A stretch of DNA of 33,831 nt from Phycisphaerae bacterium SM23_33 (lineage in GTDB: Bacteria > Planctomycetota > Phycisphaerae > SM23-33): assembly GCA_001303665.1 (NCBI GenBank), contig LJUF01000015.1:8064-41894 (forward strand), read 5' to 3'. Both the position numbers and the translations under genes were made by a program. Of the stretch, positions 24,518-25,733 are shown in pieces. Within the stretch, counting starts at the first letter, position 1, and every line of letters begins with the position of its first letter. The notes beneath the pieces are model-generated. The model worked only from the letters and a program-made list of their open reading frames with translations. It was not told the DNA's origin and did no database searches.

Positions 24518-24546
24518 TTGACGCCCAACATCTGGCGGTATAGCTT
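24518..24546 (+). promoter_or_regulatory. Candidate promoter of nrdR
   Basis: TTGACG (24518-24523), an exact 17-base spacer and TAGCTT (24541-24546), starting two bases after the previous stop codon. The leader then carries a 7-bp hairpin CCCGGGC/GCCCGGG (24602-24628) ending 15 bases before the nrdR ATG. Confidence 0.6.
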
Positions 24547-24643
24547 TCCGCGAGCCCCTACATCTTTGAAAATCGCCCTTTATGAGGGGCCAAGGGAGCT
24601 TCCCGGGCCCAAGTGCCGGGAGCCCGGGTGAGAGAGCGCCGCC

Positions 24644-25144
24644 ATGCAGTGTCCATATTGCGGCCAGGATAACGACAAAGTCATTGATTCCCGCAGCAGC
24701 AACGGCGGGCGAGCCGTGCGGCGGCGGCGCCAGTGCCGTCATTGCCGCCGACGCTTCACCACCTATGAGCGGGCTGAAGAGTCCCCCCGCATCACCGTCA
24801 TCAAGAGGGACGGCTCCCGGATGCCGTACGACCGCCAGAAGGTCCTGGCCGGGCTCCAGAGCGCCTGCTACAAACGCCCGGTCAGCCAGGAGCAATTGCG
24901 CCGGATCGTGGAAGCGGTCGAGGAGGACGTCTTCGGCACGTTCGAGAAGGAGGTACCGTCCCAGTACATCGGCGACGCGGTCAGCAACCAGCTTCGGCGG
25001 ACGGACAAGGTGGCGTACGTCCGCTTTGCCAGCGTGTACCGCAAGTTCCAGGACGTGGGGGAGCTGATCGAGGAGGCCCAGGGGGTCCGCGACATGCCCG
25101 CGGAGACCCCCGGACAGGGAGAGCTTTTCGAGAAGGAAGGTTAG
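24644..25144 (+). CDS. nrdR: Transcriptional repressor NrdR
   Basis: A 166-residue NrdR, which represses ribonucleotide reductase genes when dATP is bound. The zinc ribbon uses Cys3, Cys6, Cys31 and Cys34 (MQCPYCGQDND and RQCRHCRRRF). The ATP-cone follows (ITVIKRDGSRMPYDRQKVLA to RTDKVAYVRFASVYRKFQDV, residues about 49-140). The C-terminal tail is slightly longer than usual. There is no ribonucleotide reductase gene and no recognisable NrdR box in the window. It is followed after 55 bases by a second ATP-cone-like gene. Confidence 0.97.
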   Translation: MQCPYCGQDNDKVIDSRSSNGGRAVRRRRQCRHCRRRFTTYERAEESPRITVIKRDGSRMPYDRQKVLAGLQSACYKRPVSQEQLRRIVEAVEEDVFGTFEKEVPSQYIGDAVSNQLRRTDKVAYVRFASVYRKFQDVGELIEEAQGVRDMPAETPGQGELFEKEG

Positions 25145-25199: not shown

Positions 25200-25733
25200 A
25201 TGGTCTTCGTGCTCAAGCACGACGGGACGTTTGAGCCGTTCGATCGGCAGAAGCTTCGCGCGTGCCTGCTGCGGGTGCTGCCCGCGCCCCGGGAGGATTT
25301 CCACTTTGCCGAGGCCCTTTCCATCGCGATCCGATGTTACCTGAGGGGGCGCCGAATCCGGTGCCTGAGCAGCGCGGCGGTCCTGGAGATGGCCCTGACG
25401 GTGCTGAGGGCGGTGGGCCTGACCGGGGCGGCGGCGGAGCTGGAAAGCCAGCACGCGGCCCGGCTGCAAGGCCGCAGCCGGTTGACCATTCACCACAATG
25501 ACGGACGGCGAACGGCCTGGTCAAAGGAGTGGCTCGCCCGGCAGGCGGCGAGCCGGTGGGGCCTGGGGCGGCCGGCGGCCAGAATCCTCGCCGGCCAGAT
25601 CGAGCGGGAGCTCATCCGCCAAGATGTTCGGGACGTCGGCCGCGCTGAACTGATGCAGATGCTGGCTGTCAACGCCGCCGCCTACGGCCTGGCCGGTCCG
25701 GGCCAGCGCCAAGCCATAAGCCGCTCCCGCTGA
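25200..25733 (+). CDS. ATP-cone-like protein adjacent to nrdR
   Basis: A 177-residue protein without a zinc ribbon. Residues 1-85 resemble an ATP-cone (FVLKHDGTFEPFDRQKLRAC... then RRIRCLSSAAVLEMALTVLR), as in NrdR and ribonucleotide reductases. Residues about 93-165 look like a divergent second copy (DGRRTAWSKEWLARQAASRW, then LAGQIERELIRQDVRD and ELMQMLAVNAAAYGL). A nucleotide-sensing role is inferred only from this similarity and from being next to nrdR on the same strand. The start is uncertain: the ATG at 25200 has no spaced ribosome-binding site, AGGAG at 25171 is 24 bases away but would suit an in-frame CTG at 25185, and a GTG at 25209 is also possible. Confidence 0.6.
   Translation: MVFVLKHDGTFEPFDRQKLRACLLRVLPAPREDFHFAEALSIAIRCYLRGRRIRCLSSAAVLEMALTVLRAVGLTGAAAELESQHAARLQGRSRLTIHHNDGRRTAWSKEWLARQAASRWGLGRPAARILAGQIERELIRQDVRDVGRAELMQMLAVNAAAYGLAGPGQRQAISRSR

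Follow-up and report, generated by a model that had tools for sequence, protein, structure and literature searches.

The gene that directly follows nrdR in the window (the whole 33.8-kb stretch of DNA analysed) suggests that an enzyme has turned into a regulator. Its product is almost certainly a double ATP-cone, and the gene very probably belongs to the NrdR regulon, judging from predicted NrdR boxes. The protein is also likely to be a descendant of the class III RNR (NrdD) without its catalytic domain. The whole account, in which a leftover of NrdD is kept as a nucleotide sensor under NrdR control and tunes NrdR itself, could be right or wrong with about equal probability. NrdR is a repressor that controls the synthesis of DNA building blocks and has been described as sensing ATP and dATP unaided, through its own cone. 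If the account is true, NrdR has a co-regulated partner that brings an additional nucleotide site, which alters the view of dNTP control in a whole phylum; and the passage from active enzyme through dead full-length enzyme to bare sensor shows how an essential enzyme becomes a regulator, in a rare instance that can be tested directly.

The open reading frame spans positions 25,200 to 25,733 of the plus strand (177 aa, stop codon included in the span). It begins 55 bp after the stop codon of nrdR (24,644 to 25,144, plus strand, 166 aa), on the same strand; as an earlier sequence-only reading of this DNA had said, no gene lies between. The nrdR product is the transcriptional repressor with zinc ribbon and ATP-cone (TIGR00244, 179 bits; PF22811 and PF03477 above cut-off). 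The same reading took the first half of the neighboring protein for an ATP-cone without a zinc ribbon and the second half for a diverged copy, and both proposals are borne out. Cone 1 (residues 1–93; 25,200 to 25,478, plus strand) is recognized by HHalign, AlphaFold and a table of conserved residues, with a Pfam match slightly short of the threshold: residues 3–70 match the Pfam ATP-cone PF03477 (E = 4.4e-5; 24.4 bits, curated cut-off 25.8 bits), and the profile matches the NrdR cone at 98.5% in HHalign. The Pfam search found no zinc ribbon (PF22811), and the frame begins at the cone. Cone 2 (residues 94–166; 25,479 to 25,697, plus strand) is degenerate, contains the invariant W107 and W111 and has no Pfam match of its own, being recognized by AlphaFold, HHalign and the residue table. 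There the protein stops: neither Pfam nor AlphaFold revealed an NRDD catalytic domain bearing the active-site Cys and the glycyl radical, and only a C-terminal tail of low confidence follows (residues 167–177 plus stop codon; 25,698 to 25,733, plus strand; pLDDT <50).

The predicted structure shows the ATP-cone fold twice. In the AlphaFold model built from eight sequences (pLDDT 86), one order of strands and helices, a beta-hairpin plus helical bundle, occurs two times over. The top Foldseek match in the PDB, with 186 aligned columns and E = 2e-6, is Pseudomonas aeruginosa NrdA (5IM3), a protein with two consecutive ATP-cones (PMC9669993); the overall rmsd of this alignment is 17 Å, so the two cones are positioned differently relative to each other. 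The next matches are the cones of NrdR, P. copri NrdD and L. blandensis NrdB, at ~2 Å over single cones, and a viral fold search returned RNR cones as its sole matches. Profile–profile comparison with the NrdR cone succeeded directly for cone 1 but not for the second half, which matches it at only 39%. The second half is reached through an intermediate, the second cone of planctomycete NrdD: this cone is matched by the profile of the second half (95%, E = 3e-8) and itself matches the NrdR cone (90.6%, E = 1e-6). We rejected an origin as an NrdR paralogue without zinc ribbon, since cone 2 is closer to the second cone of NrdD than to the NrdR cone. An origin from a kinase was likewise rejected: residues 9–153 match NF008994 (2-phosphoglycerate kinase) weakly, at E = 1e-4 and 21 bits where the cut-off is 603 bits, and there is no kinase domain.

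The pairing with nrdR, on which the sequence-only reading had leaned, is conserved. The repressor gene is the immediate upstream neighbor, on the same strand, in 27/29 testable genomes with the short form (the window, 22 of its relatives and four further genomes of the class); one locus, on a contig too short to tell, stands outside this count. The two exceptions belong to genus g22 (G021, G030), where nrdR is on another contig than the double-cone gene. For comparison, the gene preceding nrdR was found in only 2/25 related loci, and so was the downstream guaB, which is undercounted because the flanks are only 1.5 kb. Longer versions of the protein have nrdR upstream in 53/55 loci across Planctomycetota; in the remaining two, the contig ends just upstream (L142) or no nrdR occurs in the available 640 bp (L145). 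Neither outcome that would have counted against the sequence-only reading, a predicted fold unlike an ATP-cone or a neighborhood that is not conserved, was observed.

Predicted NrdR boxes, scored with a simplified consensus of our own, point the same way. Two box-like sites on the plus strand lie between the preceding gene and nrdR, GCCCAACATCTGGCGG at 24,523 to 24,538 and CCCCTACATCTTTGAA at 24,555 to 24,570, with a spacing of 32 bp, roughly three turns of the helix, and with the start of nrdR 73 bp further on. They form the only pair in the window that scores at least 20, and random 250-bp segments of related loci reach a score of 21 in ~2.5% of cases, real sites included. Predicted pairs precede nrdR in 16/27 short-form loci and the class II RNR gene nrdJ in 23/29 loci, the window's genome among them. 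In genus g22 the unlinked double-cone gene has a predicted pair of its own (L166 and L168; shuffle P = 0.004 each), and the tie to the NrdR regulon is therefore independent of operon inertia; the two pairs, from two species of one genus, probably represent one event.

Homologues of the double cone form a family under selection. The window belongs to a planctomycete genome. In a set of 60 related genomes, 24 in addition to the window carry one at E < 1e-19 and a further genome does so at 9e-7, and a genome-contig search with a 4-row alignment of double-cone homologues found matches in 7 named Phycisphaerae/Planctomycetota metagenome bins. Both halves are conserved, with K6, E12, R92, W107, W111, E135, G163 and L164 invariant in an alignment of 24. 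Several relatives of the window (L174–L184) carry nrdR followed by other genes, a Na/Pi-cotransporter-like frame in G026 and the four genomes of genus g9; there the double-cone gene was lost or was never present, and since unrelated genes stand in its place it is dispensable. These absences, together with the higher dN/dS of more distant pairs (0.37–0.53, where the estimate is less reliable), are what one might expect of a functionless, decaying relic of nrdD, a reading that we regard as highly improbable. Close pairs have dN/dS of 0.09–0.21 with constraint on both halves, which indicates purifying selection; residues are invariant, the frames are open in all full-length homologues, and the gene is retained with its own predicted box pair when unlinked.

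The origin of the family can be traced in longer proteins found throughout Planctomycetota (open frames of 475–1031 aa), whose N-termini match the family profile over both cones. We arranged them with the short forms into groups. Group A is intact NrdD (PF13597, E ~1e-120 to 1e-130), in which the two active-site Cys, the zinc Cys and the RIVGYF motif are all present. Group B (L064 and L123, family f55) is full-length NrdD in which both catalytic Cys are lost and the radical glycine is replaced by D. Groups C and D have C-termini with patches of NrdD similarity in phmmer searches, or none; HHalign finds them collinear with NrdD in five families (99.4, 98.8, 95.8, 89.3 and 84.1%) and weakly so in two eroded families (21.6 and 4.8%). 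Group E is the double cone alone, comprising the window's family and its relatives. The activase NrdG2 goes with the intact enzymes and is mostly absent elsewhere: it scored above cut-off in 12/12 genomes of group A, 0/2 of B, 4/33 of C and D and 6/22 of E, and a separate ordinary NrdD is present in three of the four NrdG2-bearing C and D genomes and in all six of group E. The series explains planctomycete genes that follow nrdR and have no NRDD match or mere remnants of one.

Constraint appears to have shifted from the enzyme part to the sensor part along this series. The catalytic part exceeds the cones in conservation in two pairs whose active-site Cys are intact (0.83 vs. 0.75 and 0.81 vs. 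0.74), while a third intact pair (f12) is reversed, with the cones better conserved than the C-terminus. Among dead or eroded pairs, conservation of the cones relative to the C-terminus is 0.71/0.59, 0.75/0.56, 0.73/0.50, 0.60/0.44, 0.56/0.38 and 0.59/0.52. In family f28 (L067–L069, L077) ~300 aa without a clear NrdD match follow the double cone, and in one pair of this family (L068 and L069) they are as conserved as the cones; the C-terminal part may have been put to new use.

The direction of change bears on a second alternative, in which the free double-cone regulator beside nrdR is ancestral, had the same role with NrdR and was later fused to the NrdD catalytic domain. An unrooted tree of the double-cone region is compatible with such a history, placing the short forms in one clade (98/87) at one end, intact NrdDs at the other and eroded forms between them. 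The intermediates, however, keep collinear remnants of NrdD (84–99% in the five families above), which makes fusion the less likely course, and the survival of two full-length dead NrdDs fits loss, not gain; we consider the ancestral free cone improbable. The full NrdDs from two families of the same class (f3, f12) branch apart from the short forms, which accordingly did not simply derive from them; their placement possibly reflects an older split, gene transfer or artefact, and fast-evolving forms may attract each other in the tree.

Descent from NrdD by loss, our preferred reading, leaves the question of what the cones do. In Streptomyces coelicolor NrdR, residues V48, K50, R51, E56, F58 and K62 contact nucleotides or shape the adenine pocket (PMC9110341, PMC12176259). 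Their counterparts in cone 1 are kept in 20, 24, 21, 24, 23 and 22 of 24 sequences, respectively; the window's protein has H7 at the R51 position, where most sequences have R. In cone 2 the positions of K50, R51, E56, F58 and K62 mostly hold H, an acidic or other residue, T, W and W, and because these counterparts are replaced, cone 2 probably does not bind nucleotides in the known way. The proposal of the sequence-only reading, a nucleotide sensor or NrdR partner, is partly supported and well motivated because the cone 1 residues are kept and the gene has its own predicted NrdR boxes where it is unlinked. We also considered whether the loss of E56 in the adjoining NrdR, which has M there in the window, means that the double-cone protein has taken over sensing, and set this aside; this position is variable throughout the planctomycete NrdRs.

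These observations suggest the following mechanism. The ancestor was most likely an NrdD within an nrdR–nrdD–nrdG operon; the lineage would then have turned to other RNRs, losing the NrdD catalytic domain and retaining the double cone. Going by its residues, cone 1 may bind ATP/dATP, and cone 2 would be a degenerate structural or docking cone. NrdR pairs through its zinc ribbons, and larger assemblies form when its ATP-cones pair in turn, a step controlled by ATP/dATP (PMC9110341, PMC12176259); a co-regulated double cone would be well placed to join such assemblies; the lack of a zinc ribbon makes mixed ones conceivable. Made under NrdR control, the protein would most likely tune the repressor by cone-to-cone contact, with mixed assemblies that block or reshape NrdR's DNA-binding tetramer in response to the dATP/ATP ratio. 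In this scheme we infer which way evolution ran, that nucleotide is bound, that the protein touches NrdR and what sign the effect has. A more specific version, in which an RNR lost its catalytic domain stepwise and its regulatory head became a free subunit that senses nucleotides and assembles with NrdR, the mixed complex setting RNR transcription, is advanced tentatively and we think it somewhat doubtful.

Comparison with known systems places the protein outside each of them. Multiple-cone RNRs are known in all three classes (PMC9669993), and the tandem cones of P. aeruginosa NrdA (5IM3) resemble the double cone in having two ATP-cones in series and matching its structure over the full length; the double-cone protein differs in standing alone, without a catalytic domain, and in having a gene tied to nrdR. 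The nrdR-linked planctomycete NrdD (e.g., L061, L062, L089) has homologues of both cones (residues 3–168, the span of the profile match to its N-terminus) and occupies the same slot after nrdR, but continues into an NRDD domain of 560 aa that holds the active-site Cys and the glycyl motif. NrdR shares an ATP-cone with the same nucleotide-contacting residues, a common operon and boxes, whereas the double-cone protein lacks the zinc ribbon and carries a second, degenerate cone. The L. blandensis NrdB cone (5OLK, PMC5794259) likewise lies outside the RNR catalytic subunit, but it is fused to NrdB rather than free-standing, and its target is the RNR holoenzyme. We file the double-cone protein as neither NrdR nor NrdD, as a variant of the ATP-cone regulators. 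The open-access literature searched contained no stand-alone double cone, nrdR-linked ATP-cone protein, RNR pseudoenzyme or series toward a bare cone.

In other RNRs, ATP-cones are known to have moved to NrdB, the subunit that generates the radical (PMC5794259), and this favors the main alternative, that the protein is a detached allosteric domain acting in trans on the cone-less class II NrdJ through the dATP/ATP ratio, with adjacency to nrdR reflecting co-regulation only. No ATP-cone is seen in the larger class II NrdJ of the window's genome or in the NrdJs of its family, and nrdJ too has predicted NrdR-box pairs, at the loci counted above. Yet the gene adjoins nrdR, not nrdJ; relatives without it have the same kind of NrdJ; and eroded forms persist where NrdA has its own cone (G115, G158, G140), which speaks against action on NrdJ as a general rule. 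For these reasons we judge the alternative unlikely. Simple compensation for a cone-less RNR was rejected as a general explanation on the same coexistence of eroded forms with cone-bearing NrdA. Tuning of NrdR by the double cone is the reading that we retain.

The RNR genes themselves showed several further features. In the window's genome, two RNR genes read as class II (L117/L171 and L170); the larger, without an ATP-cone, is preceded by a predicted NrdR-box pair, and the smaller is cut by the contig end. Four families (f50, f79, f87 and f88; L063, L129, L135, L136, L145, L162 and L194–L205) encode full-length nrdR-linked NrdD with intact active-site and zinc Cys in which the RxVGYF glycyl-radical motif is replaced in most members, G-Y being kept in two of f79. 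NrdG2 is present in all six genomes checked among these families. Searches of four genomes (G088, G136, G319 and G224) found neither a class I/II RNR nor a second NrdD, and their sole detected RNR thus seems to be without the radical glycine. Finally, L210 (G272, family f58) reads RIGDYF instead of RIVGYF, a recent change at the glycyl-radical site, with the motif intact in five other genomes of f58.
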